Shown here piece by piece: positions 3,894-34,806 of a DNA stretch of 35,839 bases (positions are counted from its first letter, which is position 1; every line of letters begins with the position of its first letter). The position numbers and the translations under genes were made by a program. This stretch comes from Rhizobiaceae bacterium. Lineage in GTDB: Bacteria; Pseudomonadota; Alphaproteobacteria; Rhizobiales; Rhizobiaceae. The notes under the pieces are model-generated. The model saw only the letters and a list, made by a program, of their open reading frames with translations, did no database searches and had not been told where the DNA came from. Where the stretch lies: NCBI GenBank assembly GCA_014238155.1, contig JABABQ010000049.1, forward strand, positions 1 to 35,839. The letters are read 5' to 3'.

Positions 3894-3899
3894 CAGGTT

Positions 3900-16232: not shown

Positions 16233-16518
16233 TATTGCTCTCACGATTACCAAAAACAGATGCGGCTGCGGCTCTTCAAAATCTCAATGAGTGGCAAGGG
16301 AAATTGTTATGATAATGCCGCCGTCGAGACTTTCTTCAAAACCATCAAAGCTGAACTTATCTGGCGTCACAAATGGCAAACACGACAGCAGGTCACCGAC
16401 GCTCTGTTCCAGTACATCAATGGTTTCTACAACACACGCCGAAGACACTCAGCAATAGGAGGAATCGCCCCAGTCAAATTCGAACGAAAATCAGCCTAAA
16501 CGAGAACCGGATGCGGAA

Positions 16519-18043: not shown

Positions 18044-18774
18044 AACACATCCACACAGCTTGGGAAGATGGTCTGAAACCCTTCCGCATATTTTGCAGGA
18101 CGTCCACCGGATTGACCGCCGGAATTTCGGCGAAAATGATTGGCGCGGTTTTCAGCTACATTGGTGTAATAATCCCAAAGGTGTTGTTGACCCTCCATGC
18201 AATGTATTGCAGCGAGCTTCTTGTCCCAGACCTCTGTAATGTCGAGAAATACATCGGGCTTCCAGCCCATTTGCTCAGTCTGGTGTGGCTCAAAAAGATA
18301 AAGCTGGGGCGCTCCCAAAACTTTCTGGCCCGGATTGTGCCCCCATGCCTGCGCAATCATCCGCGCTTCGAGAGCAACTTCCGTGGTGTACATATGATCG
18401 GTATTGTATTGATCATATTTCGAATGACTCATCATGAAGTCGGGTTGTACGGCGCGGATGATATCAACGATCTTGAATTTGGCATCATCATCAACTCGCA
18501 GTGGATAGTCGCCCAAGTCTAGAAATTGAATGTCGTGGAGTTCTAGAGCTTTAGCGGCATTTTCAGCTTCGCGTCTTCGCTCAGATTTGACTTTTTCAAG
18601 CGTCATGCCTTCTTGCTTCCAAAGTCGCGCACTTTCTCCGCGCTCCCCGAAGGACAAGCAGACAACAGTGACGTCGTAACCCAATTGTTGATGCTTTGCG
18701 ATTGCGCCACCACAACGCCAGACAAAGTCGGCGGCGTGCGCTGATATGACGAGTGCCGTTTTGTTGTTGGGCAT
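18040..18774 (-). CDS. galB: 4-oxalomesaconate hydratase (PIG-L/LmbE family)
   Basis: A 244-residue PIG-L/LmbE-fold protein like Pseudomonas putida GalB, which hydrates 4-oxalomesaconate to 4-carboxy-4-hydroxy-2-oxoadipate. The metal site is visible in [14 protein letters not shown], where AHAAD replaces the AHPDD of deacetylases, and in [23 protein letters not shown] is another family-typical segment. ATG 18774 ([13 protein letters not shown]) has GGAGG upstream and is chosen over 18807. It is the first gene of a galB-galC-galD operon and is divergent from the first tandem-HTH LysR regulator. The sequence is unlike LigJ (amidohydrolase fold), so GalB is the better name. Confidence 0.88.
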
Positions 18775-18864
18775 ATTTAATTTCCTCCAATTTCCCACAA
18801 CCGACATTGAACGCCGCGGCTGACAATTGCCAATTCAGAGTGTTTTCTTTGCTATAAGAAAATG

Positions 18865-18882
18865 ATATAGGAATTCCTATAT
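18865..18882. promoter_or_regulatory. Perfect palindrome between galB and the LysR gene
   Basis: ATATAGGAATTCCTATAT is a perfect 18-base palindrome ending inside the ATG (18881) of the divergent LysR gene, about 90 bases upstream of galB. Position and symmetry suit an operator bound by a dimeric regulator controlling both genes. AGGA within it is also the LysR gene's likely ribosome-binding site, so binding could block translation start as well. Confidence 0.5.
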
Positions 18883-20116
18883 GATATCTGGATCAGCACT
18901 CAATATCCGTCACCTACGTACATTTGTCGCGGTCTATGACACCGGAACCACCGCTGCAGCTTGCCTCGTTGCCAACCTGTCGCAACCGGCGATTAGTCAG
19001 GCGATCAGCAAGCTGGAAGTACAACTGGAAGTTCAACTATTTTCGCGATTCAGTACCGGCATGGCCCCTACGCACGAAGCAGGTATTTTATACCGGCGGG
19101 TGCAACGATTCTTGGTGTTTTTAGAGGAAGCTGTCGCATTAGCGAACAAAACTGGTTTGAATCGAAAGCGGATCAGCACTAGCTCGGCGATAACCAACAC
19201 GCAGTTGAAAGCAGTCATTGCAATTGGAAAACATGGTAGCTTTACTGGGGCTGCACGTGATGTTGGCACTTCTCAACCTTCATTGTTGCGTAGCGCGCGC
19301 GATTTGGAACGATTGCTTGACACCAAACTTTTTGTCCGAAACTCCAAAGGGGTCGACTTAAATTCAATCGCCAGGAAATTCGTTCGATTGATCAGAGTTG
19401 GAATATTGGAACTTGATATAGGGTTGGAAGAAATCTCCAACAGCCAAGATGGCGAGACGGGAAGCCTTCGAATAGGCGCATTACCACTTTCGCGTAGCGT
19501 TTTGTTGCCCTCCGCGATAAATTCCCTGCTTGACGAAAAACCTATGGCAAAAATTAGCACGCAAGATGGCACTTATAAAGATCTCCTTTTTGCACTTCGC
19601 CACGGAGAAATCGACCTGATTTTGGGTGCAATTCGCGAAGAACAAAGAAGTCAAGACGTAGTTCAACATAAGCTTTTTGACGATCACTTGGGTGTTTTTT
19701 GCCATCCCGACCATGCAATGAACGCAAAGTCTGCCGCGCCGGAATTTCTGGCCAAACAAACGTGGATAGTTGCTCGAAAAGGGACTCCTGCCCGCACTCA
19801 TTTTGACACGTTTTGCGAACTAAGCTTTGGAAACCTTAGACCTCAAATGGTTGAAACAGGCTCGCTTTCAATCGTCAGAGGATTATTGGGCTCCCCGTTT
19901 CGATTGGCAGTTGTTTCCAAACTGCAGTCTCAAAAAGACGTTGAAATGAAGGCAATGGTTGAGTTGCCCATAGCACTCAACGACCCGCCTCGCTCAATCG
20001 GATATACAATCCGTTCAGATTGGTCCCCAACAGCGATTCAGTCGGCCTTTATTGATATTTTGAAGTCCAAAGCAACGCTTATTTGTCAACAACGCCAAAA
20101 TATCGAAAGTGAATAG
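18881..20116 (+). CDS. LysR-type regulator with two N-terminal HTH domains
   Basis: A 411-residue LysR-family regulator, about 100 residues longer than usual. Residues 7-64 form a normal LysR winged HTH (LNIRHLRTFVAVYDTGTTAA, then LSQPAISQAISKLE). Residues 107-165 contain a second one (TQLKAVIAIGKHGSFTGAAR, then SQPSLLRSARDLERLLDTKL). A substrate-binding domain follows, with GSLRIGALPLSRSVLLPSAI and LLFALRHGEIDLILGAIREE. It is divergent from galBCD and probably controls it, with a pathway intermediate as ligand. The regulator at 33610-34806 has the same architecture, which suggests duplication or a shared subfamily. Confidence 0.9.
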   Translation: MISGSALNIRHLRTFVAVYDTGTTAAACLVANLSQPAISQAISKLEVQLEVQLFSRFSTGMAPTHEAGILYRRVQRFLVFLEEAVALANKTGLNRKRISTSSAITNTQLKAVIAIGKHGSFTGAARDVGTSQPSLLRSARDLERLLDTKLFVRNSKGVDLNSIARKFVRLIRVGILELDIGLEEISNSQDGETGSLRIGALPLSRSVLLPSAINSLLDEKPMAKISTQDGTYKDLLFALRHGEIDLILGAIREEQRSQDVVQHKLFDDHLGVFCHPDHAMNAKSAAPEFLAKQTWIVARKGTPARTHFDTFCELSFGNLRPQMVETGSLSIVRGLLGSPFRLAVVSKLQSQKDVEMKAMVELPIALNDPPRSIGYTIRSDWSPTAIQSAFIDILKSKATLICQQRQNIESE

Positions 20117-20185: not shown

Positions 20186-21112
20186 ATGGCCATTGAAACT
20201 CAATCGAAACTCAAACAGCAAAACATTTGCTTCATAGGATATGGAGAGGCAGCGCAGGCTTTTACGCAAGGATGGTCAGGGACGATTGATATTTCTATAT
20301 CGGCTTATGATATCCGCACCGATATTGAGGGCCCTATCCGAGATAATCAGATTGATGCGTTTGAGCACAATGGCGTGCTAGGTCATATGAATTCCTGCGA
20401 TGCCATTGAGGCTTCTACGATCATTTTTTCGATGGTTACGGCAGATCAGGCAGTTTCTGCGGCACAAGCAGCAGCGGTCGGCAACATTGCAGAAAAACTG
20501 TATTTTGACTGCAATTCAGTTGCGCCACAGACAAAACAAAAAGCGAGGGATATCATCGAAGCCGCTGGTGGAAAATATGTAGATGTCGCCATAATGGCTC
20601 CTGTTCATCCAAATCTTCACAAGACTCCGGCATTAATTTGCGGGCCCCACTCCAATCTCGCACTGGCGTCACTTCAAGCATTAGAACTTAATGTGAAGGT
20701 TGTAGAGGGTGACGTTGGTTCTGCCGCCGCAATAAAGCTCTGTCGCTCCATCGTCATCAAGGGGCTTGAGGCGCTATCCGCCGAAATGATGTGTATAGCC
20801 CAAACTTTAGGGGTCGAGGAATCCGTTATCCAATCTTTGGATCGGTCTCATCCAGGATTCGATTGGAAAACGCAGAGCAACTACGCACTAGACCGCATGA
20901 TGGTCCATGGGCATCGACGGGGGGCCGAAATGGGAGAAGCGGTGGGCATGCTTCGTCATCACGGAATCCCATCGGACGTCTCTCAAGCTACAGCGGTTTG
21001 GCAAAATCGTGTGGCCGAACTTCAAGCAGCTTCTGGCCAAATTGCTGGCGAACCACCAATGTTGGTCGATGATGTTTTGCACCAACTTGGTAGGAAGTCA
21101 CAAGCCTACTAG
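20186..21112 (+). CDS. NAD(P)-dependent oxidoreductase, 6PGDH/HIBADH type with DUF1932
   Basis: A 308-residue dehydrogenase. The N-terminal Rossmann motif is ICFIGYGEAAQAF. The LYFDCNSVAPQTKQKARDII and YVDVAIMAPVHPNLHK segments resemble the 3-hydroxyisobutyrate dehydrogenase superfamily, and the C-terminal part (GDVGSAAAIKLCRSIVIKGL, then ALSAEMMCIAQTLGV) is DUF1932-like. The conserved Lys (AIKLCRS) is in the expected place. Its substrate is unknown and it has no obvious step in the pathway. It follows the LysR gene and is convergent with dctM; the two stop codons overlap in a CTAG. Confidence 0.8.
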   Translation: MAIETQSKLKQQNICFIGYGEAAQAFTQGWSGTIDISISAYDIRTDIEGPIRDNQIDAFEHNGVLGHMNSCDAIEASTIIFSMVTADQAVSAAQAAAVGNIAEKLYFDCNSVAPQTKQKARDIIEAAGGKYVDVAIMAPVHPNLHKTPALICGPHSNLALASLQALELNVKVVEGDVGSAAAIKLCRSIVIKGLEALSAEMMCIAQTLGVEESVIQSLDRSHPGFDWKTQSNYALDRMMVHGHRRGAEMGEAVGMLRHHGIPSDVSQATAVWQNRVAELQAASGQIAGEPPMLVDDVLHQLGRKSQAY

Positions 21113-22410
21113 TAAACGGTGCCAGGAAGGTATAGCGCCAAGCTTGGAAACATCAGAATGAACAAAATTGCAAAAGCCATTGCGATCCAGAATGGGAAAA
21201 TTCCCTTAAATATGGCAAGAAGCGACGTTCGTGGCATCAGGCTCTTAACCACAAAAACGTTCATACCGACCGGCGGTGAAATCAGCGCCATCTCCAACGT
21301 AATCACCATAAGAACTCCGAACCAAATCAGATTAATTCCCTGTGCTTCTAACATCGGCTGTATCACCGGAATGGTTAAAACCAATATCGCAAATCCGTCG
21401 AGGAAAGTTCCCAAAACAATAAGTGATACCAGGATTAGACACAAAAGGCCGGTTTGGGAGAGTTGCAAGTCTGTTACTGCCTCACTTAGTGCAAATGGTA
21501 GGCCGGTGAAGGCAATAAATGTTTTAAAAACAAAAGCGCCGAACAGTATATAAAATATCGAACCGCATGTGGTCAGCGTATGCTCAGCGGCAGTAAACAG
21601 TTTGCTTTTGTCCAAAGCCCCTCGAAGAAATGTGACAATCAATGCTAACGTTGCGGCTATCCCGGCGGCTTCAACTGCCGAAAAGACACCTAAATAAATG
21701 CCTCCGATTGAGATCACAATTATACTAAGAATGGTTGACGCCTTCGCCGTTTTTCTTATTCGCAATCCAAAGTTTTGGGCAATGCCTGTTTGCGGAGCTA
21801 GCTCAGATTTTACGGCGACTGCAAGCCGGATCGCCACTATAAATAGGAATGTTAACAATAGACCAGGCACAACCCCAGCCAGAAACAGCTGACCAATTGA
21901 AACTTCAGTTAGGATCGCATAGATAACAAAGCCTGCAGAGGGAGGAATAAGTATTCCCAACGTGCCGCCAGCTGCCACTGCGCCCGCCGCAAACCCGTCA
22001 TTATACTTGTAGCGCTCCATTTGAGGCAACGACACGCGCCCCATCGTTATTGCTGCAGCTAGCGAAGAACCGGAGAGAGCGGAAAACGCTGCACACCCCA
22101 TAATTGTTGCAGATGCGAGTCCTCCTGGCTTGTGCCCGACCCAGGAATGAGCTGCATCATACAGGTCGCGGCTCATTCCAGAAATGCTTGCCAAATTACC
22201 CATCAATATGAACATTGGTAGAATTGTAAGAGCGTAGGATGTGGCCTCTGAAAATATTTCACTGCCGATAACAGGCAGCGCTGCCGGGGGGCGAATCAGG
22301 TAAATTCCGACAGACCCTACAATAAGCATCGCGGTGCCAATCGGCATCCGCATCGCCAGCAGTCCAAACAATCCAAAAAAGGAGACTATGCCGATTTCAA
22401 GACCTGACAT
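21109..22410 (-). CDS. dctM: TRAP transporter large permease (DctM type)
   Basis: A 433-residue, strongly hydrophobic protein of the DctM family with about 12 predicted membrane helices. GSLAAAITMGRVSLPQME and AAGGTLGILIPPSAGFVIYA are typical DctM motifs. It forms the sodium-coupled translocation channel with the small permease. The start overlaps dctQ by 14 bases. Together with the upstream substrate-binding protein it forms a complete transporter, probably for the (halogenated) hydroxybenzoate substrate. Confidence 0.95.
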   Translation of the reverse strand: MSGLEIGIVSFFGLFGLLAMRMPIGTAMLIVGSVGIYLIRPPAALPVIGSEIFSEATSYALTILPMFILMGNLASISGMSRDLYDAAHSWVGHKPGGLASATIMGCAAFSALSGSSLAAAITMGRVSLPQMERYKYNDGFAAGAVAAGGTLGILIPPSAGFVIYAILTEVSIGQLFLAGVVPGLLLTFLFIVAIRLAVAVKSELAPQTGIAQNFGLRIRKTAKASTILSIIVISIGGIYLGVFSAVEAAGIAATLALIVTFLRGALDKSKLFTAAEHTLTTCGSIFYILFGAFVFKTFIAFTGLPFALSEAVTDLQLSQTGLLCLILVSLIVLGTFLDGFAILVLTIPVIQPMLEAQGINLIWFGVLMVITLEMALISPPVGMNVFVVKSLMPRTSLLAIFKGIFPFWIAMAFAILFILMFPSLALYLPGTVY

Positions 22411-22900
22411 TTTTAGCTTTCAAGATAATTGCGATGTCAACAACCAATACGACTGCATAAAGGCAAAACGCAGCGGCAAGTGTCCAATAAACAGGTGCGT
22501 GAGGAAGCGAGAGATTGGCAGTAAATTCGCCACATGCCCTGCCGCAACTGCTTTTCAAAAGGAGAGCGTACACTGCAATTACACTCATCGCGATCCCGGC
22601 CGCAGAAACGAACAACGAGATCCATTTTCTGTGCAGTTCCGGAAGCTTTGTTACGAACATGTCGACAGCAATATGGGTTCTGGATATTGCTGCCAGCGCT
22701 AGTCCAGTCGATACAACACCTGCTAAAGTTAGCTTCGCCAGGTCCTCGAGGCCGAATATTGGGTTACCAAATAAATAGCGCGCGCCAACCCCGACAATTG
22801 TCAACCCAACAAGCCACAAAAGGAATATGGTTCCAAGACCGACAAGTATGCGATTGCCAAGTTGTATGGCTTCCTCCTCGCTCTGTTGAAGATTACTCAT
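22397..22900 (-). CDS. dctQ: TRAP transporter small permease (DctQ type)
   Basis: A 167-residue protein with four probable membrane helices, beginning ILVGLGTIFLLWLVGLTIVG. GARYLFGNPIFGLEDLAKLT matches the DctQ family's R-Y-x-F-x-x-P-x-x-x-xEE-like motif. The start overlaps the dctP stop (ATGA) and the end overlaps dctM, so all three are translationally coupled. Confidence 0.93.
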   Translation of the reverse strand: MSNLQQSEEEAIQLGNRILVGLGTIFLLWLVGLTIVGVGARYLFGNPIFGLEDLAKLTLAGVVSTGLALAAISRTHIAVDMFVTKLPELHRKWISLFVSAAGIAMSVIAVYALLLKSSCGRACGEFTANLSLPHAPVYWTLAAAFCLYAVVLVVDIAIILKAKNVRS

Positions 22901-23889
22901 TTACCCTGCATCAGATTATAAACTTCACGACCAGTCATGCCGCCAGAAATCTCTCGCTCTTGCCACGCCTCAAACGGAGCTGCGATGGCGTCTGCAAATT
23001 CCTGTTTCGCTTCTTCGTCTAAGCGGATGATTTCAACGCCGTTGTCGGCTGCAAATTTTAATCCAGATGCTCCAGCTTTGGCGTAGGTCTCGCCACCCAT
23101 TTTTGACAGACCTTCACCTGAAGCCTGGTCGACCCAAGCCTTTTCTTCCGTCGTGAGATTATCATACACGCCCTTGTTCATAAGAAGCACAAAAGCGGCT
23201 CCGGATAATGGAAGACCAACAGTCACATAATTTCCAGGTTCATGTAAAGAAAATGATCTGATGGCAGAAGGATCGATAACGATCGCATCAATAACGCCAT
23301 TTGCCAAATTCTGATTCAAGACAGAGGCAGGTTGTGAAACCGGTGTTGCCCCAAGTGCTTCAATATATGGGGCATCGGCCTTGGTCGTTACACGAATTTT
23401 CAATCCGGCCAAATCGTCAACCCCGTCCACCGGTTTGTCCCGTGTAACCAATATTGGAGGTTCGTTTGCCCAAACCCCTAGCAGTTTTGCATCAAATTCT
23501 GCCTCTATTTTGTCCTGAACTCGCAAAAGCGCCTCAGTGCACTCTTTCGCGCTCGAACACAAATGGGGCGCCGAAACCGAAGTGGAAATTGGAAACAAGT
23601 CAGCGGTATAGCCTGGCAAAGCAAAACTGATATCCATTATACCCGAAAGCAATGCCGAGTACTGCTTTGGCGGTGCTGAACTCAGTGCACCGCCCGGAAA
23701 CTGTCTCACACTAAGTTGGCCATCCGATACCTCAGACAGCTTTTCTGCAAATGGCGTAAAAACACCTTTGTTTAGCGGATGCTTAGGACCCATGAAATAG
23801 CCAAGCGCGAATTCATCCGCACTTGCGAATGCCGTTGCACCAAGTAGCCAAGCCAGTGTCAACGACAGCGCACTCAATTTCTTAAACAT
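22897..23889 (-). CDS. dctP: TRAP transporter periplasmic substrate-binding protein (DctP type)
   Basis: A 330-residue precursor. The signal peptide MFKKLSALSLTLAWLLGATA ends near AFASADE. The mature part has DGVDDLAGLKIRVTT with the conserved ligand-binding Arg of DctP proteins, and a typical NGVIDAIVIDPSAIRSFSLH segment. The ATG at 23889 follows GGGAGGAT; a start at 23979 would place 30 extra residues before the signal peptide and overlap the promoter. A candidate operator and -35/-10 pair lie just upstream. The operon position beside the dehalogenase gene suggests uptake of an aromatic acid. Confidence 0.93.
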   Translation of the reverse strand: MFKKLSALSLTLAWLLGATAFASADEFALGYFMGPKHPLNKGVFTPFAEKLSEVSDGQLSVRQFPGGALSSAPPKQYSALLSGIMDISFALPGYTADLFPISTSVSAPHLCSSAKECTEALLRVQDKIEAEFDAKLLGVWANEPPILVTRDKPVDGVDDLAGLKIRVTTKADAPYIEALGATPVSQPASVLNQNLANGVIDAIVIDPSAIRSFSLHEPGNYVTVGLPLSGAAFVLLMNKGVYDNLTTEEKAWVDQASGEGLSKMGGETYAKAGASGLKFAADNGVEIIRLDEEAKQEFADAIAAPFEAWQEREISGGMTGREVYNLMQGK

Positions 23890-23937
23890 AATATCCTCCC
23901 ATATGGTGAGGCGGTTCCTTCCCACCTTCAAGCTCGA

Positions 23938-23986
23938 ATCTTGACACGAAAAAAGGCATTTGTCAAAAAAATGGACCATCAGTCCA
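23938..23986 (-). promoter_or_regulatory. dctPQM promoter with palindromic operator
   Basis: On the minus strand TTGACA (plus 23961-23966) and CAAGAT (23938-23943) are spaced by 17 bases. Five bases upstream of the -35 box is TGGACTGATGGTCCA (plus 23972-23986), a 15-base palindrome with 6-base arms (one mismatch) and a 3-base centre. Near-identical operators lie upstream of pobA and ligI at the same spacing. The position favours an activator. Confidence 0.65.
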
Positions 23987-24446: not shown

Positions 24447-25208
24447 ATGAACCAGAAAATGTCGACTAACGATAATTCAGATAAAGGTGGCGCTCTAGGC
24501 CGCGGACTTAAGGTGCTCATGGCTCTCAACGATCTTGAGACTGGAACCGTAGCCGGTCTCGTCCAAGAAACTAAGTTGCCTAAGCCTACGCTTATTCGTC
24601 TTTTGCAAAATCTAGTCGATTTGGGCTACGCTGCACATGACGATGAAACGAGCACCTATGCAGTCACGTCCAAAGTTGCGTCGCTGTCGAGAGGACTGGT
24701 TGGTCGCGGCCCTGGGGATAGTGAGCTTCAGAACATCTTGGACAAGATGGCGGACGAATTAAAATGGCCTACGGAATTTCTTGTCCGAGACGGCGCCTCC
24801 ATGGTCATCGAAACCAACAATAGAGCACGTGCTCCGATCAAGCTAAAACTGTTTGAGAGAAGGCGCTTTCCCATGTTGGCATCAGCTGCAGGTATCGCGG
24901 TTTTGGCATCTCGAACTCTCGGTGAGCGCGAAACGGAAATCAAGCGCCTCACTGGCAACGAATTTGAAGAAGCTGAAGCAAGGAACTGGGTTGAACGAAG
25001 TGTCGCAAATGGCTACGCACAGCGACCGCTTGCCGAGCTCGGCGAAAATATGACTGTGTCAGCCGTTGCCATACCAGAGCACTCTGCTGCTGTATCCTTG
25101 GTGTATTTTGAAGACGTCCTGGACAGCTCAGCTTTTGTGAGTCGTATCTTGCCGCATTTACGCAAGAGAGCCAGCGAAATTGCAACCGTCTTAACTCAAT
25201 CGAAATAG
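24447..25208 (+). CDS. IclR-family transcriptional regulator
   Basis: A 253-residue IclR regulator. The winged HTH is at residues 16-75 (GRGLKVLMALNDLETGTVAG, then LPKPTLIRLLQNLVDLGYA). The C-terminal effector domain includes GAS-type MVIETNNRAR and FPMLASAAGIAVLAS, as in the PobR/PcaU/PcaR group. IclR proteins of that group control pobA and protocatechuate genes in other bacteria. It lies between the transporter and ligI/dehalogenase genes and is the best candidate to bind the shared palindrome upstream of dctP, ligI and pobA. Its 3' end overlaps that of ligI by 13 bases. Confidence 0.9.
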   Translation: MNQKMSTNDNSDKGGALGRGLKVLMALNDLETGTVAGLVQETKLPKPTLIRLLQNLVDLGYAAHDDETSTYAVTSKVASLSRGLVGRGPGDSELQNILDKMADELKWPTEFLVRDGASMVIETNNRARAPIKLKLFERRRFPMLASAAGIAVLASRTLGERETEIKRLTGNEFEEAEARNWVERSVANGYAQRPLAELGENMTVSAVAIPEHSAAVSLVYFEDVLDSSAFVSRILPHLRKRASEIATVLTQSK

Positions 25209-26068
25209 AGAGTGGTCGGGTTTTCTACCAGCAGTGCTTTCTGCGCCGACACTGAGGGCGCAATGATTGGAATTAAATCCACTAACTGTCCATCGTCTGG
25301 AAGATGGCTTTTCATATTTGGATGAGGCCAATCTGTTCCCCAAAGGACACGATCACCGGCCATTTCAATGACACGCTGCGCGAACGGTATGACATCTGTG
25401 TAGGGCGGACCAGAGATAGATAGGCGCTCAGGGCATCCGACTTTAACCCAAAATTTTGCGTCTTCGATCAACCTCAAAAAAGATTGGAAGACTTTGTCAT
25501 CTGTACCCGCAGCGATGTCAGGCCGACCCAAATGATCCACAACAACTCGAGTTGGCAGTGCCTTAAAAAAGGGAACTAAATCCTCCAAATCCGCAGGCTC
25601 AAAATATACGACAACGTGCCAACCTCGCTCGGCTATGCGGTGCGCAAGATTTAAACGCGGCTCCAATGGACCGGGGTCTACCAACCTGCGCAGAAAATTA
25701 AAGCGCACTGCACGCACGCCGGCCGCATCTAACACATCAAGTTCTGCGTCTTCAATCTCAGGCTTAACCACGGCAACCCCACGGCTATTGATTGGATCTC
25801 TATTTAGAAGGTCCACCATCGCCGAATTATCGGTTCCATGACAGCTCGCTTGCACAAGCACTCTTCGCTTGAAGCCTAATCTGCGATGCAAATTCATTAA
25901 CATTTCTGCACTCGCATCTTGCGGAGTATATTTGCGTTCCGGAGCAAATGGGAACTTCTCGTCTGGGCCGAATACATGGCAATGCGCATCAACTGCACCT
26001 TCCGGCACAACAAAGTCAGGTAACTTCGGGTTGGGGTGCCAAGTTTTGGGCTCTCTTTGTTCAGCCAA
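25196..26068 (-). CDS. ligI: 2-pyrone-4,6-dicarboxylate hydrolase
   Basis: A 290-residue amidohydrolase-fold enzyme that opens 2-pyrone-4,6-dicarboxylate to 4-oxalomesaconate. Motifs include GAVDAHCHVFGPDEKFPF (HxH), QASCHGTDNSAMVD, VRFNFLRRLVD, VVVDHLGRPDIA and VLWGTDWPHPN, closely matching Sphingobium LigI as I recall it. I choose a TTG start at 26068: GGAGG lies 10 bases upstream, and a TATAAT at 26091-26096 lies just before it. The ATG at 26122 would precede the -10 box. Here LigI acts after LigC. Confidence 0.92.
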   Translation of the reverse strand: MAEQREPKTWHPNPKLPDFVVPEGAVDAHCHVFGPDEKFPFAPERKYTPQDASAEMLMNLHRRLGFKRRVLVQASCHGTDNSAMVDLLNRDPINSRGVAVVKPEIEDAELDVLDAAGVRAVRFNFLRRLVDPGPLEPRLNLAHRIAERGWHVVVYFEPADLEDLVPFFKALPTRVVVDHLGRPDIAAGTDDKVFQSFLRLIEDAKFWVKVGCPERLSISGPPYTDVIPFAQRVIEMAGDRVLWGTDWPHPNMKSHLPDDGQLVDLIPIIAPSVSAQKALLVENPTTLYFD

Positions 26069-26090
26069 GGGGCACGGTCCTCCAATGCTT

Positions 26091-26139
26091 ATTATACGTT
26101 TACAGAACAGTACTCTACACATAATGGACCTAAGGTCTA
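26091..26139 (-). promoter_or_regulatory. ligI promoter with palindromic operator
   Basis: On the minus strand a consensus -10 TATAAT (plus 26091-26096) follows a weak -35 (TGTAGA, 26114-26119) at 17 bases. TAGACCTTAGGTCCA (26125-26139) lies 5 bases upstream of the -35 and matches the dctP and pobA operators in the GGTCCA half, with one mismatch between its arms. A weak -35 beside an operator is typical of activator-dependent promoters. Confidence 0.6.
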
Positions 26140-26200: not shown

Positions 26201-29200
26201 TTACAAGTCGAGAACGATTCGGTCAGAATCCTTAACGGCGCGAGAGCAACAAAGGATCATTTTGGACTCTCTTTGTGTTTTACTAAGAACGTAATCACGA
26301 TGCTCAATATCTCCCGCAAGATAGCCAGTTGCGCAAACTCCGCAAAGGCCGTCTGAGCACTTTACGTCCACATCAACACCGACTTCTGCCAGGACTTCGG
26401 TTATTTTCTTTTTTGCAGGAACGGAAACGACCTTTCCGCTAGAACGCAGTTCAACTTCGAACTCATGGTTCTCCCACTCAGAATCATCTGGAACGGAAAA
26501 ATATTCTCGGTGTAGCGCATCTTCCGGCCAACCAAAGGTTTTTGCGGTATCGAACACCGCGTCCATAAATGCAGATGGACCACAGGTATATACCTGATCA
26601 CCTGCAGTGTGGCTGTTTAGAACAGTGCTGATGTCCAACCTGTCCTCGTCGCTAAAGTAAAAGTGGACACGGTCCGCCCATGCTACCGCTGCTAGCTCCT
26701 CGATGAACGCGGCCTGCTTCCTGGTTCTCGCTTTATAAAATAGATCAAATTCTTCATTCTTTGCATGCAACTCGTGCCCCATAGCTATGAGGGGCGTAAC
26801 GCCGATGCCGCCCGCCATAAGTATATGTCTGCCATCAGTCTCCACGACAGGGAAATGATTTCGCGGACGCGATACTACCACAGGTGAACCAGGCTCCATG
26901 AGTTCATGGATTTTCTTGGATCCTCCGCGACCGTCATCTTCGCGCAATATTCCCAGTATATAGGTACTGGAATCAGCAGGATTTCCCGCCAACGAGAACT
27001 GCCTGACATATTGCGGCGTAACCGTGATATCAACGTGGGCACCGGCTGAAAAAGAGGGTAAATCAGAGCCGTCTGCAGAAGCTATTTCAAATACGTCAAT
27101 TTTTCCATCAGCTGAGCTGCTTTTTCGAGACAGCACCTTGCCAACAATCACAGGGGGGGAATTGCCCACCAATGGAGGTTTGTTCACAAGCTCCGATGTG
27201 TTGCCCTCTTTCAATCTTTTTTTGTACTCAGCGGGAGACAAAGCGCTTTCATATGCCTCAATTCCAGCTTCTCGGTCCAAGGGGCTGGGCATCGGTAAAG
27301 GTGGTGGCGCGAGGTTAATGGGATACATCGCTAGCGTTTGGTCTTCACGTTTCACATCTATGTGTTTGTTGAGTTCTCTCGTATTGGTGTCTTCGGCGCG
27401 ACCAATCTTGCCGTCGGTTCGACGCGCAACGTCCCACCACCATTTTTTCACTCCATTAATCGATCCTCGATTGAGACCGTCATCCAATCGGGCCAGCCAA
27501 CGCGCTGCAGAAGGCAAGTTCATTGCCGCCCACCGAAATGGAGCCTCAACAACCAAACCCTCCAAATTCCAAGGACACATCTTCATGCATCTGCCGCACA
27601 TCGCACCTGCCAGATTGGTCATCCGGTACTGGGTGCATTTAGCCGTATCTGCTTTCCAAATTTCGTAGCCATTAAACATGACCTTTGGGCCAGATGAAAT
27701 TGCACCGGAGGGACATTCCCGAGCACATTTGTTGCAAGAATTACAAAAATTTTGAAGACCGAAATCGATAGGCTTGTCCGGCTCCATGGGGAAGTTCGTT
27801 GTTAGAATGCCGGTCTTCAGTCGAGGCCCAAGAAACGGATTCAGGATCGTGTCGCCAATACGACTGACTTCTCCCAAGCCAGCGAGCAAAACAAGGGGCG
27901 TCTGGATTACATCGCTGTCAGCTGCAGAATGTGCTGTCGAACAAAATCCGAGGTTTCTAAGGTGTTGTCCAAGCACGCCACACACGAGAGCTGCTCTCAT
28001 GTAAGTTCGCATGGATTGGGCTGATGAAATCCAATCATCGCCGCTTGCTCCAGCCATCGTTTCGTGGCCTTGATCAATCATGATTGATGCCGCGAATGGG
28101 TGTTGCACCGACATTTCCGAGCCGTCTTGTCGGTGCGAGTACCACACCCATGCGGGGGCTCTTGATACGCCGGCAATATCGGCACCCAAAAAGTGCAATG
28201 TCGCCTTTAGCGTCGCGGTGTTCTTTACGGGATCTTGGTATCCCGACGCAACGTCTCCTGCGGGCTCACCTCTTTGAAGCAAGGAGTAAACGTTTAGCGC
28301 CAATCGAAGAGCGCCAGCAAGCGGCGCCTTTGTAACGGAATAGCTGTCTTTAGAGGCTTCCAATGCAGGCTTGCCGAGATCACCAAACGCCGCCCTCAGA
28401 AACATTTCGCTGGATTTAGGTACTCTTGGAATTCGATCTTCATCGATAAATGTTGTTGGAGTTTCTCGGCGTTTCAGTTTTTCGGTGGGATATCGGCTGT
28501 GTTGATACGGCCGACCTTCCATGTCGATCTTGGTCCTGGGAGTCTTTTGCGCTGCAGCTCCAATCCACCAAGACGGACCAAAAGCGCGCAGCCGATCGAT
28601 CGCGCTTTGCTTCCCAAGTGGTGGATCGGCGTCCAGGTCCAAATTGGTTGTGACAACGGCCACTTCGAACCGCGATCCGAAATACGGATTTGAAATTCCA
28701 TCCTCAACTGGAGTGGCCAAACCTGCCGCCACAGCCGCTGCATGAAGATCAATTTCACTTGTCGTTGCGGAGTGGCTTCGCGCCTCAAATCCCAAAATCC
28801 GCAGATAGTTCGCCAGAACCACGGCCGTCTCTGATGCTCGAACTGCCGCTCGCCAGGGCTGAAGCCCCTGGATCCAGCTGCAGCCTTCTTCGTCGGAACC
28901 TGGATCACGGGGATAGTCATTGACAATAACCAGCGCATGTGAGTGCCCATCAAAGGGCGCGGAAGCCAACTCAATTGCGCGTTCCATTTGTTTGATCACT
29001 GCGAGTGGATTGAAACGTAGCCTGAGTTTTTCCTTGGACGCACTGAACGACAATCGAGATAGACCATCATGAACATGGGGCTTGTCCAGCAAGAGTTTCG
29101 GTTCAATTTTCGCTACTCCCACAGCGGCTGCATCAAGAAAGTAGCCGGCTGCCTTCAAGTGTCGCGTCCTCTCCTCCGGATCTTCTGGAATCTCCGCTTT

Positions 29201-29494
29201 GCTTTCAGCAACCCCACCCTCCCGCACAGCGTCGAGCGCGCACATAAATTCATCGATCGAATGACCGAGTTCGGTAGGTTTGAAATCGCCCCGAAGCAGA
29301 CCGGTCGTGCTCAGGCCTTCAAAAATCGGATCCGCGACGCGACCAAGCTTTTCAAACGGGAAAGAACCCAGATGCACCGGTCTTGAGGAATGAGAGAAAA
29401 GACGCAATTCATACTCCCTATGTACTTGCAGGTTCAGATCAAGACTTAAAGGGAGCATACGATTGACGAAGCTTGATTGCGCATCCAAATACAA
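26201..29494 (-). CDS. Self-sufficient reductive dehalogenase (BhbA/NpRdhA type) fused to a reductase
   Basis: A 1097-residue fusion. Residues 180-290 and 465-570 are two related copies of the cobalamin-binding NtrR-like unit. The second has the catalytic set: S494, Y498, K560 and R624 match NpRdhA S422, Y426, K488 and R552, all offset by 72 as I recall that enzyme. Two [4Fe-4S] motifs are C584, C587, C590, C594 and C620, C633, C636, C640. Residues 780-1000 are a phthalate-reductase-like flavin/NAD module (RQFSLAG, MAGGIGVTP, YTCGP), and C1046, C1051, C1054, C1082 bind [2Fe-2S]. There is no Tat signal, so it should be cytoplasmic and NAD(P)H-driven. BhbA removes bromine from 3-bromo-4-hydroxybenzoate, and the pobA neighbour fits that substrate. 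The start is uncertain: TTG 29494 or ATG 29458. Confidence 0.93.
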   Translation of the reverse strand: MYLDAQSSFVNRMLPLSLDLNLQVHREYELRLFSHSSRPVHLGSFPFEKLGRVADPIFEGLSTTGLLRGDFKPTELGHSIDEFMCALDAVREGGVAESKAEIPEDPEERTRHLKAAGYFLDAAAVGVAKIEPKLLLDKPHVHDGLSRLSFSASKEKLRLRFNPLAVIKQMERAIELASAPFDGHSHALVIVNDYPRDPGSDEEGCSWIQGLQPWRAAVRASETAVVLANYLRILGFEARSHSATTSEIDLHAAAVAAGLATPVEDGISNPYFGSRFEVAVVTTNLDLDADPPLGKQSAIDRLRAFGPSWWIGAAAQKTPRTKIDMEGRPYQHSRYPTEKLKRRETPTTFIDEDRIPRVPKSSEMFLRAAFGDLGKPALEASKDSYSVTKAPLAGALRLALNVYSLLQRGEPAGDVASGYQDPVKNTATLKATLHFLGADIAGVSRAPAWVWYSHRQDGSEMSVQHPFAASIMIDQGHETMAGASGDDWISSAQSMRTYMRAALVCGVLGQHLRNLGFCSTAHSAADSDVIQTPLVLLAGLGEVSRIGDTILNPFLGPRLKTGILTTNFPMEPDKPIDFGLQNFCNSCNKCARECPSGAISSGPKVMFNGYEIWKADTAKCTQYRMTNLAGAMCGRCMKMCPWNLEGLVVEAPFRWAAMNLPSAARWLARLDDGLNRGSINGVKKWWWDVARRTDGKIGRAEDTNTRELNKHIDVKREDQTLAMYPINLAPPPLPMPSPLDREAGIEAYESALSPAEYKKRLKEGNTSELVNKPPLVGNSPPVIVGKVLSRKSSSADGKIDVFEIASADGSDLPSFSAGAHVDITVTPQYVRQFSLAGNPADSSTYILGILREDDGRGGSKKIHELMEPGSPVVVSRPRNHFPVVETDGRHILMAGGIGVTPLIAMGHELHAKNEEFDLFYKARTRKQAAFIEELAAVAWADRVHFYFSDEDRLDISTVLNSHTAGDQVYTCGPSAFMDAVFDTAKTFGWPEDALHREYFSVPDDSEWENHEFEVELRSSGKVVSVPAKKKITEVLAEVGVDVDVKCSDGLCGVCATGYLAGDIEHRDYVLSKTQRESKMILCCSRAVKDSDRIVLDL

Positions 29495-29916: not shown

Positions 29917-31107
29917 ATGCTAAAATCCAGAAAAACTCAGGTCGTGATTATTGGTGGAGGTCCTTCTGGACTGATGCTTTGCCATATGTTGAACCATCGC
30001 GGAATCGATGCCACTGTCCTGGAGCGAAAATCAAAAAGCTATGTTCTTCAGCGAATCCGGGCCGGCGTGCTGGAGGCTGGGACAGTCCAGTTACTTAAAG
30101 ATGAGGGCCTGGGTGCCCGAATGGATTCAGAGGGACATTCTCATGATGCCCTGCACATTGCTTGGCAAGGTTTTGATCCATTCGCCATTGACACAAATTT
30201 GCACACCGGGAAAAAAATGGTCGCCTATGGGCAAACGCAAATTACTGAGGATCTTTACAATGCGCTCGAACGGCAAGGTGCCGACCTTGTCATGGAAGCC
30301 GAGGATGTAGAGGTTCATGAACCCGACAGCGAAAGCCCGTTTGTAACCTATGTAAGCGATGGGCAGACCCACAAGCTGGAATGTGACTATATTGCAGGAT
30401 GCGATGGATTTCATGGAGCTTCAAGAAGAGCCATTCCAGACAGCATCCTCAAGACATATGAGCGGGTTTATCCCTTCGGTTGGCTCGGAATTATGTCGGA
30501 GACACCACCACTGAAAGACATCACCTACGCGCACCATCCAGAGCGAGGTTTTGCGTTGGCTTCGCAACGTTCGCAGTCGCTAAGTCGATACTATATTCAG
30601 TGTCCCGTGACCGACGATTTGGATAGCTGGTCGGATGAACGATTTTGGGATGAGATCAAGGCCAGATTTCCTCCCGAGCTGGCAGCACAAATCGTCTCTG
30701 GTCCGAGCATTGAAAAGTCGATTGCACCGCTGCGGAGTTTTGTAGCAGAGCCCATGCGATATGGGCGCTTGTTTCTAGCGGGTGACGCCGCTCATATCGT
30801 CCCACCAACCGGCGCAAAGGGGTTAAATTTAGCCTTCTCCGATGTGTTTTATCTCTGTCGCGCTCTAACCGAACAAATTTCGAATAATAATCAACGTTAT
30901 CTCGATGAGTATTCACAGACCGCGCTTCGCAGAGTGTGGACAAACGTCAGAATTTCTTGGTGGCTAACTGGCCTGCTCCACATTTTTCCCGACGATACAG
31001 GGTTCGACAAAAAGATCCGCGAAAACGAGTTCTTTCACTTAAGAAAATCAGAGCGCGCTCAAGCCGCACTAGCCGAGCAGGTGGTTGGAGTGCCGTTCGA
31101 TTATTAG
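29917..31107 (+). CDS. pobA: 4-hydroxybenzoate 3-monooxygenase
   Basis: A 396-residue flavin monooxygenase, the same size as PobA of Pseudomonas. It hydroxylates 4-hydroxybenzoate to protocatechuate using FAD, NADPH and O2. The N-terminal FAD motif is VVIIGGGPSGLMLCHML, the DG motif is AGCDGFHGASR, and RLFLAGDAAHIVPPTGAKGL is the GD/FAD region with the conserved Pro-Pro-Thr-Gly. The substrate region QRSQSLSRYYIQ contains the Ser-x-Arg-Tyr positions that bind the carboxylate. ATG 29917 has a GGGAAAG site. It is divergent from the dehalogenase gene and convergent with ligC. Confidence 0.96.
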   Translation: MLKSRKTQVVIIGGGPSGLMLCHMLNHRGIDATVLERKSKSYVLQRIRAGVLEAGTVQLLKDEGLGARMDSEGHSHDALHIAWQGFDPFAIDTNLHTGKKMVAYGQTQITEDLYNALERQGADLVMEAEDVEVHEPDSESPFVTYVSDGQTHKLECDYIAGCDGFHGASRRAIPDSILKTYERVYPFGWLGIMSETPPLKDITYAHHPERGFALASQRSQSLSRYYIQCPVTDDLDSWSDERFWDEIKARFPPELAAQIVSGPSIEKSIAPLRSFVAEPMRYGRLFLAGDAAHIVPPTGAKGLNLAFSDVFYLCRALTEQISNNNQRYLDEYSQTALRRVWTNVRISWWLTGLLHIFPDDTGFDKKIRENEFFHLRKSERAQAALAEQVVGVPFDY

Positions 31108-31125: not shown

Positions 31126-32070
31126 CTAAACCATGGCTTGCCGAATTCGATCAAGTACCTGCATGGTAACTAGTGCTTGTTGGAAAGAAGACTCTGGCTC
31201 GCGACCGTCCTTGATTGCCGATAGAAACTCTCGATCGATTAGTTCAATTCCATCGCTGCTATCGGCGACAAGACTGAGATCGATTTGCCGATCATAACCA
31301 TCGTAAAGTTCGTCATAACGGGCAACGTAGGTTCCGGTATCGCCAATGTACCGAAACGATGATCCCAATGGTCCATCGTTGTTAAAAGACAGAGAAAGCG
31401 TGCACAGGGCACCCGAGGGAGATTTTAGTCCAATCGACATATCCATGGGAATGTTCATATCGGGATGGTTAGGACCCTTCATGCAAAAAACATGATCTGG
31501 AATCTCGCCGACCTGGTGCACAAACAGATCAACGGTGTGGCAGGCGTGATGCCACAGTAGATCGTCGGTCCAGGTGCGAGGTCTACCGTCGGCGCTGGAA
31601 TTGGTCCGTCGAAAAAAATAGGTCTGGACGTCCAACTGTTGAACGCGAAAGTTTCCCGACTTGATCCGTTGGTGGATCCATTTGTGGCTAGGATTGAAGC
31701 GACGCACGTGCCCGACCATCCCCATAACACCAGCTTCTCGCTGAATGTCCACGAGTTCGCGCGCGTCGGCCAGGTTGTCGGCCATCGGAATCTCGCAAAA
31801 ACAATGCTTTCCCCCCTGCATTACAGCCTTAGACTGCGCGGCATGAAGGGGAGTGGGCGTCGACAGGATGACCGCGTCGACGTTGGGATTTGCGATTAAT
31901 TCATCAAGATCGGTGGTGAAATGATCAATTTTGCGTTCTTGCGCCAGCTCACGAATTTGATCTCCACATCGCCCCATAACCGAAGTTACCTCGGCGCCCT
32001 CAATTCTGGAAAGCGCTTCAAGGTGTTTTCGCCCAAAGGCACCATAAGCACCCGCAACTACAACTTTCAT
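31126..32070 (-). CDS. ligC: 4-carboxy-2-hydroxymuconate-6-semialdehyde dehydrogenase
   Basis: A 314-residue Gfo/Idh/MocA-family enzyme like Sphingobium LigC. It oxidises the hemiacetal form of the ring-cleavage product to 2-pyrone-4,6-dicarboxylate using NADP. The Rossmann motif is VVVAGAYGAFGRKH, followed by VDAVILSTPTPLHA and KHCFCEIPMADNLADA (the EKP-equivalent). DLLWHHACHTVDLFVHQ holds the catalytic His region. Its ATG overlaps the ligB stop (ATGA), so it is the third gene of a ligA-ligB-ligC operon. Confidence 0.95.
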   Translation of the reverse strand: MKVVVAGAYGAFGRKHLEALSRIEGAEVTSVMGRCGDQIRELAQERKIDHFTTDLDELIANPNVDAVILSTPTPLHAAQSKAVMQGGKHCFCEIPMADNLADARELVDIQREAGVMGMVGHVRRFNPSHKWIHQRIKSGNFRVQQLDVQTYFFRRTNSSADGRPRTWTDDLLWHHACHTVDLFVHQVGEIPDHVFCMKGPNHPDMNIPMDMSIGLKSPSGALCTLSLSFNNDGPLGSSFRYIGDTGTYVARYDELYDGYDRQIDLSLVADSSDGIELIDREFLSAIKDGREPESSFQQALVTMQVLDRIRQAMV

Positions 32071-32909
32071 GCAGCTTCATCTTCAAAACAAATAAGACCA
32101 CCAGCGGTATTTGAAACTGGGACGTGATAGTGCCTGTATACTTCCTTCGGGTTCTCCATCGCCCCTCTCATGATAAGCCACATGATAAGCTCGATGCCCT
32201 CTGATCCGGCGTCTCGCAAATACTCGTTGTGGTCGATCTTAGTCAAAGCCTCAGGATTGTCTTGAAGATTATCGAGAAACATCAAGTCAAACTCTTGGTT
32301 TACGAAGCCAGCTCGCTCTCCTTGAAGTTGATGGCTCATACCACCGGTGCCAAATACTGCCACGCGCAAATCCTCAGGATAGCTTTCAACGGCCTTACGC
32401 AGCGCTTTACCAAGTTTGTAGCAACGTAATCCAGTTGGTTGTGGGTATTTAATTACATTCACGCACAATGGAATCACCTTGCAAGGCCAGCTTTCAGGTC
32501 TGTCATACATCACGGTCAAAGGAACGGTTCCGCCGTGATCCACGGCCATTTCGTTGGCTATGGCGATGTCAAATTCATCAAAGATCAAGCACTCATTAAT
32601 ATGGGATGCAAAGTCTGCGTGCCCCTCGATATGGGGCACAGGACGAGGCCCGTAGCCTTCATCCGCGGGTTCATACTTTTCAGCAACACCCAAGACGAAA
32701 GTATTCACAACTTCCACCGAAAATGCGCACGCATGATCGTTGTAAACAAGAATTACTACATCCGGATTCACTTTCGAGATCCATTCACGTGCTGGATCGT
32801 AACCATCAAAAAGCGGCTTAAAATATTCATTGCGATCCTTCGCGTGATCACTTGCAGCACCAATTGCCGGCACATGCGATGTTCCTACGCCAGCCACGAT
32901 CTTAGCCAT
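32067..32909 (-). CDS. ligB: Protocatechuate 4,5-dioxygenase beta subunit
   Basis: A 280-residue class III extradiol dioxygenase catalytic subunit. The iron ligands of Sphingobium LigB (H12, H61, E242) correspond to H12 (GTSHVPAIG), H59 (VYNDHACAF) and E240 (GSEGIEL). Further active-site His residues H125 (DHGGTVPL) and H193 (GMSHQLQG) are present at the same -2 offset. It cleaves protocatechuate between C4 and C5. It overlaps ligA by 8 bases, and both chains form an alpha2beta2 enzyme in the family. Confidence 0.97.
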   Translation of the reverse strand: MAKIVAGVGTSHVPAIGAASDHAKDRNEYFKPLFDGYDPAREWISKVNPDVVILVYNDHACAFSVEVVNTFVLGVAEKYEPADEGYGPRPVPHIEGHADFASHINECLIFDEFDIAIANEMAVDHGGTVPLTVMYDRPESWPCKVIPLCVNVIKYPQPTGLRCYKLGKALRKAVESYPEDLRVAVFGTGGMSHQLQGERAGFVNQEFDLMFLDNLQDNPEALTKIDHNEYLRDAGSEGIELIMWLIMRGAMENPKEVYRHYHVPVSNTAGGLICFEDEAA

Positions 32910-33300
32910 CGTTGATGTTCTCCTTTTTTGAAACGTTCCCGGAGGGTGATCTGCCGCCTTCCATCATCATTTGTTTGAAATCATCTACGGTCATCTGAGA
33001 CATCATTCCTCCGACTTGCTGCATCGAAAGGCCATCAAAGATCGCAAGCTTAAAAGTATAGTAGATGTTGCCCCCAAGATGGAGCATGCCAAGCCAATCA
33101 CGCGTCTCGACAGCTCTCCGCTGCTCAGGGGTCAAACGAAAGCGATCCAAATAGGTCGCGCCATCCTCGCGAAAGGCTTCGCGATTTTCTTCTCGATCCA
33201 ACGATTTGCAAAATTGATTAAGCTGATAGCCTTCTCGACATCTCCGGCCATTAAAAATATAAGTGCCCGGAATATCTTCATAGTCGGTATTTAAAGCCAT
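32902..33300 (-). CDS. ligA: Protocatechuate 4,5-dioxygenase alpha subunit
   Basis: A 132-residue LigA-type small subunit that closes the active site of LigB. YIFNGRRCREGYQLNQFCKS near the N-terminus and GGNIYYTFKLAIFDGLSMQQ followed by GGMMSQMT are family-typical. ATG 33300 (MALNTDYEDIPGTYIF) follows a GGAGA site by 8 bases. The open frame continues 83 codons upstream, but those residues do not resemble LigA. It heads the ligABC operon. Confidence 0.95.
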   Translation of the reverse strand: MALNTDYEDIPGTYIFNGRRCREGYQLNQFCKSLDREENREAFREDGATYLDRFRLTPEQRRAVETRDWLGMLHLGGNIYYTFKLAIFDGLSMQQVGGMMSQMTVDDFKQMMMEGGRSPSGNVSKKENINDG

Positions 33301-33609: not shown

Positions 33610-34806
33610 TTATTGCTCAAGCATGCTTAAGAATTGCAGTTGGGAATTCGTCGCTTTCCAGGGTGCGCGAACGGTGACTCCTACGCGACGGCCGAACCCA
33701 GCCAGATCGAAATCGAGTCGCGTTAAGAGGCCAAGCTCTTCTTCTTCTCGAATCTGCTGAGATGATGTGATCGCCAATCGATCACTTCGCGCCAACAAAC
33801 CACGCAACATAGCACGAGAGGATGATTCAATTATATGAACATGTGGGACGCCGGCAGCAAGTAGGTTCGCTTCAAAGAAATCCCTAGTAGGTGTTCCTTT
33901 TCTCGGAAGAACCCAACTGAATGAGGGGGCTTCCTTCCAAGAGATATTCATTTTTCCGGCTAATTCATGGTCACATTTAGCTACTACTGAAAGAGGGTCT
34001 TCGATCACAAGTCTTTGTTCCACATCTGCAAACGGCAGATCTTCCCTGATTGCTCCTAATAGATAATCAATCTCTCCAGCCCGTAACCTGGATAGTAAGT
34101 GTGAATATAGACCATCGTGTATTCTTACAGTCGATTTTGGGTACGTCTCTAGGTACCTAGAAACCGCGTCCGAAATAATATTGGTTCCATCAAGGAATGA
34201 AACAGTGCCGACTGAGATTAATCGTGCGTCACGACCAACAAGTTCTTCCAGTTCTTCAATCCCATTTTGAAGGGCTTTGAACATAAGACCCGCATGTTGA
34301 GCCAACAATTGGGCTGGAGGAGTCAATTCGATGCCTTGTTGCGTCTTTAAGTAAAATTCAAAACCCGCGACCTTTTCAAGATCTCTTGCTGCTGTGTTGA
34401 TGCTGGGCCGACTAAGCCCTTCTCGTTTTGCGGCCAGTGAGAAGTTTTTTGCGTTAGAAACAGCAAACAAAGCCTTCAATTGTGTGTAGGTAAGTCGCAA
34501 TTGAAAGTCAGATGCTTTGCTGCCTTGTCTCTTCGCCTGTCGATTCGCTTTTCGCACACCTTCGGATAGTTCCGCGAGGGCTTCTTCTACACGTATCAGA
34601 AATACTGAACCGGCTGGAGTAAGAAACACACCATTCTTGCTACGCACAAACAAATCTTGGTCCAGTTGAGATTCAAGTTTTGACAGTGCTTGCGTAAGCG
34701 CTGGCTGACTTAGTGCTACCAGGCTCGCAGCTTCACTGATGTTTTTTGTCTTGGCAACGGCTTGCAGCCCCCGCAGGTGTTTCAAATTGAAGGCAACTTC
34801 TTTCAT
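33610..34806 (-). CDS. LysR-type regulator with two N-terminal HTH domains (second copy)
   Basis: A 398-residue LysR regulator. The first HTH is residues 7-65 (NLKHLRGLQAVAKTKNISEA, then LSQPALTQALSKLESQL). The second is about residues 106-165 (TYTQLKALFAVSNAKNFSLA, then LSRPSINTAARDLE). The ligand domain has LLSRLRAGEIDYLLGAIRED, parallel to LLFALRHGEIDLILGAIREE in the regulator at 18881-20116, so both belong to one subfamily. It lies upstream of ligABC on the same strand, which makes that operon its likeliest target. ATG 34806 (MKEVAFNLKHL) was kept as start. Confidence 0.9.
   Translation of the reverse strand: MKEVAFNLKHLRGLQAVAKTKNISEAASLVALSQPALTQALSKLESQLDQDLFVRSKNGVFLTPAGSVFLIRVEEALAELSEGVRKANRQAKRQGSKASDFQLRLTYTQLKALFAVSNAKNFSLAAKREGLSRPSINTAARDLEKVAGFEFYLKTQQGIELTPPAQLLAQHAGLMFKALQNGIEELEELVGRDARLISVGTVSFLDGTNIISDAVSRYLETYPKSTVRIHDGLYSHLLSRLRAGEIDYLLGAIREDLPFADVEQRLVIEDPLSVVAKCDHELAGKMNISWKEAPSFSWVLPRKGTPTRDFFEANLLAAGVPHVHIIESSSRAMLRGLLARSDRLAITSSQQIREEEELGLLTRLDFDLAGFGRRVGVTVRAPWKATNSQLQFLSMLEQ

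Follow-up and report, generated by a model that had tools for sequence, protein, structure and literature searches.

The stretch of DNA analysed here (the window) is one whole contig (JABABQ010000049.1, 35,839 bp) of the 4.8-Mb draft genome of a Rhizobiaceae bacterium (GCA_014238155.1), and the gene under study is rdhA, which encodes a reductive dehalogenase (RdhA) fused to its own reductase. Among reductive dehalogenases, the protein belongs with the self-sufficient catabolic enzymes of the BhbA group. An open frame of 1,097 codons occupies 26201-29494 exactly on the minus strand, and the plus-strand reading of the same interval contains many stops. An earlier reading of the letters alone (the sequence-only reading) had placed the feature at these positions; the frame was exact, the strand was not stated, and the upstream limit is unlikely to be the true start. 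The first residues of BhbA, NpRdhA and other relatives align with the column of frame residue 30, where the codon is TTG (29407-29405) with AGGGAG six bases upstream. The protein is therefore likely to start at this TTG and to have 1,068 residues (26201-29407), the 5' end of the 1,097-codon frame being probably over-extended. Residues are numbered below from the start of the frame, and loci, genomes and contigs carry working labels where they have to be told apart.

Domains, catalytic residues and fold

In phmmer searches, the front of the protein matched NpRdhA over the core and the N-terminal half (E = 4.3e-162), which excludes chance, and the rear matched P450-reductase fusions and phthalate dioxygenase reductase (2pia, E = 1.8e-52). 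The NCBIfam reductive dehalogenase model TIGR02486 gave 204.2 bits, well over its cut-off (160.35). Pfam returned [4Fe-4S], [2Fe-2S] and reductase-type domains, with NAD_binding_1 just below its cut-off (20.8 against 22). The RdhA part carries C584-x2-C-x2-C-x3-C594 and C620-x12-C-x2-C-x3-C640, and the reductase module RQFSL at 831, GGIGVTP at 895 and C1046-x4-C-x2-C to C1083; the patterns for all five motifs were present in 39 of the 39 fused proteins tested, the window protein included. The dehalogenase core, the two [4Fe-4S] motifs, the flavin/NAD module and the [2Fe-2S] ferredoxin named in the sequence-only reading were thus all located, and its description of the enzyme as self-sufficient agrees with the fused reductase.

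A vestigial duplicated N-terminal cobalamin-binding-like domain was recognised through the NpRdhA alignment over the N-terminal half and the structural match of the model. The fused reductase sets the protein apart from the truncated catabolic dehalogenases of the NpRdhA type. As to the respiratory type, a rough pattern for the twin-arginine signal (RRx[FL]) found none in the window protein, and none of the window open reading frames scanned could be identified by name as an RdhB partner, a scan made without an RdhB model.

S494, Y498, K560 and R624 pair with S422, Y426, K488 and R552 of NpRdhA. As the sequence-only reading had stated, one offset fits all four (72 in frame numbering, or 43 if counted from the likely start), since the 4ras alignment runs ungapped from the first of them to the last; alignment to both NpRdhA and BhbA placed the same Tyr, Lys and Arg residues there. 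That reading had made this tetrad its main argument, which holds for the catalytic set and not for the substrate. The tetrad was kept in 64 of 64 relatives (5 of the BhbA clade, 33 other fusions, 10 NpRdhA-type and 16 short single-domain proteins), and it therefore shows an intact-looking catalytic set and says nothing on the substrate. L023 and L029, outside this count, carry the same four residues. The loci L017-L035 (except L034 and the longer L021) encode RdhA proteins of about 443-463 aa in alphaproteobacterial metagenome-assembled genomes; these short proteins keep the tetrad and are without the N-terminal half and the reductase.

A model of the core (residues 30-763, from 28 alignment rows) reached a mean predicted local distance difference test score (pLDDT) of 84.0 and a predicted template modelling score (pTM) of 0.90. 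Its first 14 structure matches were NpRdhA chains (target TM 0.92-0.93), followed by PceA at about 0.5, and the match to NpRdhA extended over 743 columns at a target TM of 0.92. The RdhA core thus models as the NpRdhA fold, a result that covers the core only. NpRdhA of Nitratireductor pacificus (4RAS, 6ZXU) shares this core fold and the tetrad, but it is only about 41% identical, has no reductase module and is without an insert of some 40 residues.

Kinship and substrate pocket

A maximum-likelihood tree of 49 rows placed the window RdhA with BhbA, the RdhA of Nitratireductor OM-1 and the proteins L007, G639 and G684, with a Shimodaira-Hasegawa-like approximate likelihood-ratio support of 100, and apart from the fused paralogue of its own genome. 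The tree was built by a quick method with a midpoint root and no bootstrap, from proteins of at least 600 aa, so that the short single-domain group is excluded. Identity was 64% to BhbA of Comamonas sp. 7D-2 (WP_015585978, plasmid pBHB), which has the same fused architecture, and 66% to the RdhA of the OM-1 plasmid pOM-1 (WP_113156447). By region, identity to the five clade members was 75-77% in the catalytic core, 63-68% in the reductase and 48-54% in the N-terminal half. The clade spans a Comamonas IncP plasmid, a Nitratireductor plasmid and alphaproteobacterial genomes, a spread that suggests horizontal movement. Two genomes of the host's family carry an rdhA almost identical to that of OM-1 in the tree, in which the Ruegeria and Jannaschia rows pair with genomes of another family than the host's. 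This pattern speaks against the family of Ruegeria and Jannaschia as that of the host, which probably belongs to the family of Nitratireductor.

The clade is rare in the samples searched. Of the 394 genomes of the host's family, 3, its own included, held a protein of at least 65% identity; the other 37 of the 40 matching family genomes held only fused proteins of 46-50% identity. Its own was the only such genome among 385 of the class (next best 52%) and among 398 of the phylum (next best 49%). Eight plasmid records covered at least 80% of the query, two of them (OM-1 and 7D-2) above 60% identity; the plasmid matches H5, H6 and H8 were left out of closer comparison.

Twelve pocket positions, in NpRdhA numbering, were taken from the part of PMC7565698 that gives them. 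The window protein shared 11 of the 12 with each of the five other clade members, 6-9 with the 33 other fusions, 5-7 with the 16 short proteins and 6 with each of the 10 NpRdhA-type proteins, counts that omit L023, L029, L036, the stretches L089-L091, the C20 protein (described below) and unaligned loci (among them L071-L081, L086-L088 and, except where named here, those from L092 on). S310, S419 and A452 were present in 5 of 5 clade members, and outside the clade in 0, 4 and 1 of 59, respectively. On these aligned residues, the predicted pocket of the clade is different from that of the crystallised NpRdhA. The assignment of the enzyme to the BhbA type, made at the outset from sequence, is supported by domain architecture, clade, pocket and gene cluster.

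JtRdhA of Jhaorihella thermophila is also a self-sufficient RdhA-PDOR fusion, a likeness taken from its published description. In the passages of PMC10463259 that describe it, JtRdhA is NADPH-driven, keeps its tight coupling in air as well and prefers 3,5-dibromo-4-hydroxybenzoate; its residues S422, M423, Y426, K488 and R552 are said to be conserved; and the purified enzyme turned over bromo and iodo compounds and none of the chloro compounds tested. The Discussion of the same paper says that NpRdhA, which is not fused, reduces chlorinated compounds, and another passage makes BhbA part of a plasmid cluster for bromoxynil breakdown. A marine debrominase of Roseobacter, as described in part of PMC13101508, acts on 2,6-dibromophenol and is oxygen-sensitive.

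The gene cluster and its host genome

The genes around rdhA (Table 1) most likely serve the breakdown of 4-hydroxybenzoate via protocatechuate 4,5-cleavage. The pobA neighbourhood from which the sequence-only reading had argued is real: pobA scored above its curated cut-off, and the same gene set lies near rdhA of OM-1. The names of ligC, ligI and galB rest on family and position. The ligI-like gene follows rdhA on the same strand after 78 bp, and its only NCBIfam match was 4-sulfomuconolactone hydrolase, below the cut-off. A longer ligA frame, to 33549, looks over-extended, as the profiles begin at its residues 84-90. The galD score was just below the curated cut-off (432.8 against 440) because the gene is cut. 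A 48% relative of the IclR-type regulator flanks rdhA of L007 as well.

Table 1. Coordinates of rdhA, its sequence features and the genes of the surrounding cluster
Feature	Position	Strand	Remarks
rdhA, self-sufficient (RdhA-PDOR fusion) reductive dehalogenase	26201..29407	-	1,068 aa from likely TTG; maximal frame to 29494
Likely start TTG (29407-29405) and Shine-Dalgarno-like AGGGAG	29405..29430	-	relatives start here
Codons S494 to Y498	28001..28015	-	= NpRdhA S422 to Y426
Codon K560	27815..27817	-	= NpRdhA K488
First [4Fe-4S] motif, CNSCNKCAREC	27713..27745	-	
Second [4Fe-4S] motif, C-x12-C-x2-C-x3-C	27575..27637	-	holds R624 (= NpRdhA R552)
C-terminal reductase module, residues about 790-1097	26204..27127	-	flavin, NAD(P), [2Fe-2S] motifs
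pobA, 4-hydroxybenzoate 3-monooxygenase	29917..31107	+	divergent from rdhA; TIGR02360 560.6 bits, cut-off 538.7
ligC-like Gfo/Idh/MocA-type dehydrogenase	31126..32070	-	named from position; NCBIfam matches below cut-offs
ligB, protocatechuate 4,5-dioxygenase beta	32067..32909	-	NF009903 430 bits, cut-off 317
ligA, protocatechuate 4,5-dioxygenase alpha	32902..33300	-	TIGR02792 133.3 bits, cut-off 108.6
LysR-type regulator	33610..34806	-	
ligI-like amidohydrolase (putative 2-pyrone-4,6-dicarboxylate hydrolase)	25196..26122	-	65% to OM-1 amidohydrolase
IclR-type regulator	24447..25208	+	PcaR/PcaU/PobR-like, below cut-off
TRAP transporter (DctM, DctQ, DctP)	21109..23979	-	aromatic acid uptake likely
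DUF1932-type dehydrogenase	20186..21112	+	relatives in OM-1, G639, G684 clusters (42-45%); no NCBIfam match
LysR-type regulator	18881..20116	+	
galB-like PIG-L hydratase	18040..18807	-	putative name; 78% to OM-1; NCBIfam matches below cut-offs
ligK/galC, 4-carboxy-4-hydroxy-2-oxoadipate aldolase	17348..18043	-	TIGR02798 352.9 bits, cut-off 304.5
galD, 4-oxalomesaconate tautomerase, truncated	16519..17454	-	covers residues 4-272 of 352-aa OM-1 protein

The window proteins were compared by tblastn with other rdhA loci. Matches to pobA and ligAB adjoin rdhA in four of the five other clade loci. Among 16 fused loci of the group at 46-51% identity (the host's own paralogue, 12 selected from 14 genomic stretches, the remaining two being of the BhbA clade, and 3 plasmid records, with flanks of differing length and some, such as L093 and L060, shortened by contig ends), pobA was found in one, the host's own paralogue on contig C5, and ligAB in none. 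No pobA match was found in the two NpRdhA-type loci examined. In one of the 16 fused loci, L096 (G146), an rdhA of the other clade adjoins matches to DUF1932, galB, ligK and galD, with no pobA match.

The cluster of pOM-1 has pobA, ligA, ligB, ligC, DUF1932, galB, ligK, galD, ligI and the TRAP transporter in common with the window, but its gene order and orientation are rearranged, its galD is full-length and an aldehyde dehydrogenase gene lies next to rdhA. At the BhbA locus, a partial pobA match and ligAB adjoin rdhA as in the window. The two differ in that pBHB has a tripartite tricarboxylate binding protein where the window has the TRAP transporter, and that the ligC, ligI, ligK and galB matches of the window cluster were not found in the pBHB stretch; the aldehyde dehydrogenase, thiamine-pyrophosphate enzyme and carbon-nitrogen hydrolase annotated on pBHB were in turn not recognised in the window. 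In four of the clade clusters rdhA has an aldehyde dehydrogenase gene as companion, the three products other than that of OM-1 being 65-89% identical to it, and in two (L056 and L126) the annotation includes a thiamine-pyrophosphate enzyme. Neither was recognised in the window, a difference between clusters hinting at different feeder substrates. Searches of the literature by title and abstract returned no paper on the OM-1 cluster as dehalogenating and, for aerobic reductive dehalogenases with hydroxybenzoate and protocatechuate, none on the window locus.

The host genome encodes a second self-sufficient RdhA, 48% identical, at C5:211193-214393 (L061:8188-11391), directly beside a second pobA; genes recognised by eye as phenylacetate-degradation genes lie near it. 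A third RdhA-like protein, of 412 aa and without a reductase module, is encoded on contig C20 (L062:7954-9192), and with Arg in the column of NpRdhA Lys488 and Trp in that of Arg552 it seems closer to the respiratory type. Strong pobA matches numbered only two in the genome (100% and 52%), each next to a fused rdhA, and the other four were partial (27-40%). With three RdhA lineages and both strong pobA genes beside a self-sufficient rdhA, 4-hydroxybenzoate hydroxylation might, speculatively, be tied to dehalogenation in this host. An intact galD lies on contig C28, and a second ligB and ligC on contig C41, so that the genome, unlike the window cluster by itself, can hold the complete 4,5-cleavage pathway.

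The galD of the cluster is cut at nested insertion sequences. At 14179-16519 an IS3-type transposase is split by an IS30-type element, and the IS3 end adjoins the truncated galD; the names of these pieces rest on reading by eye and on annotated matches. The arms of the IS30-type element are 29-nt inverted repeats (14770-14798 and 16201-16229, 97%), and its transposase reads as two pieces in the same frame. Positions 1-14000 of the contig gave no near-matches in plasmids, and positions 14000-35839 gave seven records, all inside 14098-15088; the contig is therefore not shown to be a plasmid, the matches being confined to the insertion-sequence stretch. Elsewhere on the contig, three frames lie in a tight row (7276-11902): a family A DNA polymerase, a DEAD-type helicase and one that matched nothing in Pfam. 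Together with a resolvase (12576-13178) and, at 333-818, an integrase fragment, they make up a putative mobile-element module. At 2194-3639 the contig encodes a protein whose catalytic domain is of the Tle1-like phospholipase type (Pfam PF09994), and at 4207-4551 it has a ParE-like toxin frame (weak Pfam match).

Proposed function, alternatives and significance

The window RdhA very probably removes bromine from bromo-4-hydroxybenzoate, leaving the ring to be degraded through the neighbouring genes. The architecture, the residues, the clade, the gene neighbourhood and the core fold were observed, whereas the substrate, the electron path, the role in growth and the choice of NADPH or NADH are inferred. 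The BhbA clade, the 11 of 12 pocket positions and the 4-hydroxybenzoate cluster are together better evidence of substrate than the tetrad. The sequence-only reading, which had named bromo- or chloro-4-hydroxybenzoate, is supported as right in kind; clade, pocket and conserved cluster favour the bromo-4-hydroxybenzoate link, and the chloro part is not supported, given the data for JtRdhA in the part of PMC10463259 on its substrates.

The mechanism would follow the model published for NpRdhA and JtRdhA, in which the flavin of the C-terminal module is reduced by NAD(P)H. Electrons would then travel singly to base-off cobalamin, by way of the [2Fe-2S] cluster and both [4Fe-4S] clusters. In 3-bromo- or 3,5-dibromo-4-hydroxybenzoate, the halogen in the ortho position to the phenol would come to lie on cobalt, with the phenolate held by K560, R624 and S494, and departure of the halide would go with protonation of the ring carbon by Y498 together with K560. 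The 4-hydroxybenzoate so formed would be hydroxylated by the divergently encoded PobA, and protocatechuate would be cleaved by LigAB and then processed by LigC, LigI, GalD, GalB and LigK to pyruvate and oxaloacetate, in the order of the known 4,5-cleavage pathway. Removal of the halide would free carbon for use and would not serve respiration.

Several observations weigh against this proposal. The cluster's own galD is truncated and ceases to match at residue 272 of 352, the pobA match kept on pBHB spans residues 122-395 of 396 only, and L007, a clade member, had no pobA or lig match in 10 kb downstream, its upstream side ending at the contig edge. In the pocket, position 290 is M in the window protein and F in all five other clade members, BhbA included, the sole departure from the clade, and positions 307-311 lie beside a two-residue indel that makes the alignment uncertain. 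The full-length AlphaFold model (12 rows) was poor (pLDDT 58.8) and was not used. CobN of the host scored well above its cut-off, but the BluB matches were below theirs, so that the lower-ligand route of cobalamin is unsupported.

A broader scope among ortho-halophenols (bromophenols, bromo-4-hydroxyphenylacetate, tetrabromobisphenol A), with pobA nearby as part of a general aromatic island, is plausible without being probable; as it supposes the same kind of enzyme with a wider substrate range, it overlaps with the debromination of bromo-4-hydroxybenzoate, and the two estimates are not exclusive. In the substrate data published for it, JtRdhA acts at equal speed on 3-bromo-4-hydroxyphenylacetate and 3,5-dibromo-4-hydroxybenzoate, and it also accepts iodophenols and tetrabromobisphenol A. 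The paralogue on C5 also sits beside a pobA and near the putative phenylacetate genes, whereas the recurrence of pobA-ligAB beside rdhA in the clade and the clade-specific pocket suggest a specialised role. Dehalogenation might instead follow ring hydroxylation, the substrate being a halogenated protocatechuate or another ortho-halophenol formed after PobA. It is the ligI-like gene, not pobA, that follows rdhA on its strand, and 5-halo-protocatechuate is an ortho-halophenol too. This order of events is nevertheless improbable, NpRdhA having been crystallised with bromo-4-hydroxybenzoates. BhbA is also said to act before the hydroxylase in its pathway, of which the passage cited above gives the start and end only. 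The truncation of galD at insertion sequences and the existence of the 48% paralogue could further be taken to mean that rdhA has decayed or lost its activity, its place being taken by the second fused gene. With 1,068 codons open, the cluster-binding and catalytic residues kept, and identity to the clade so much higher in the core than in the N-terminal half, which points to constraint, we regard this as very improbable.

With debromination of bromo-4-hydroxybenzoate as the preferred function, it may be suggested, speculatively, that halogenated aromatics are a main feed of the host's 4-hydroxybenzoate pathway, the window enzyme taking bromobenzoates and the C5 enzyme other bromophenols. BhbA and JtRdhA have already been described, and the present case extends the picture of aerobic debromination and does not change it. 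Only five proteins of the BhbA clade besides that of the window were found in the samples searched. In the window, rdhA shares its cluster, fuller than that of BhbA, with genes for most of the 4,5-cleavage route, and the host has this enzyme alongside a second fused one from a different lineage, a natural pair for questions of substrate and halogen range. The interest of the locus lies in this fuller cluster and this pairing, and not in a new mechanism.

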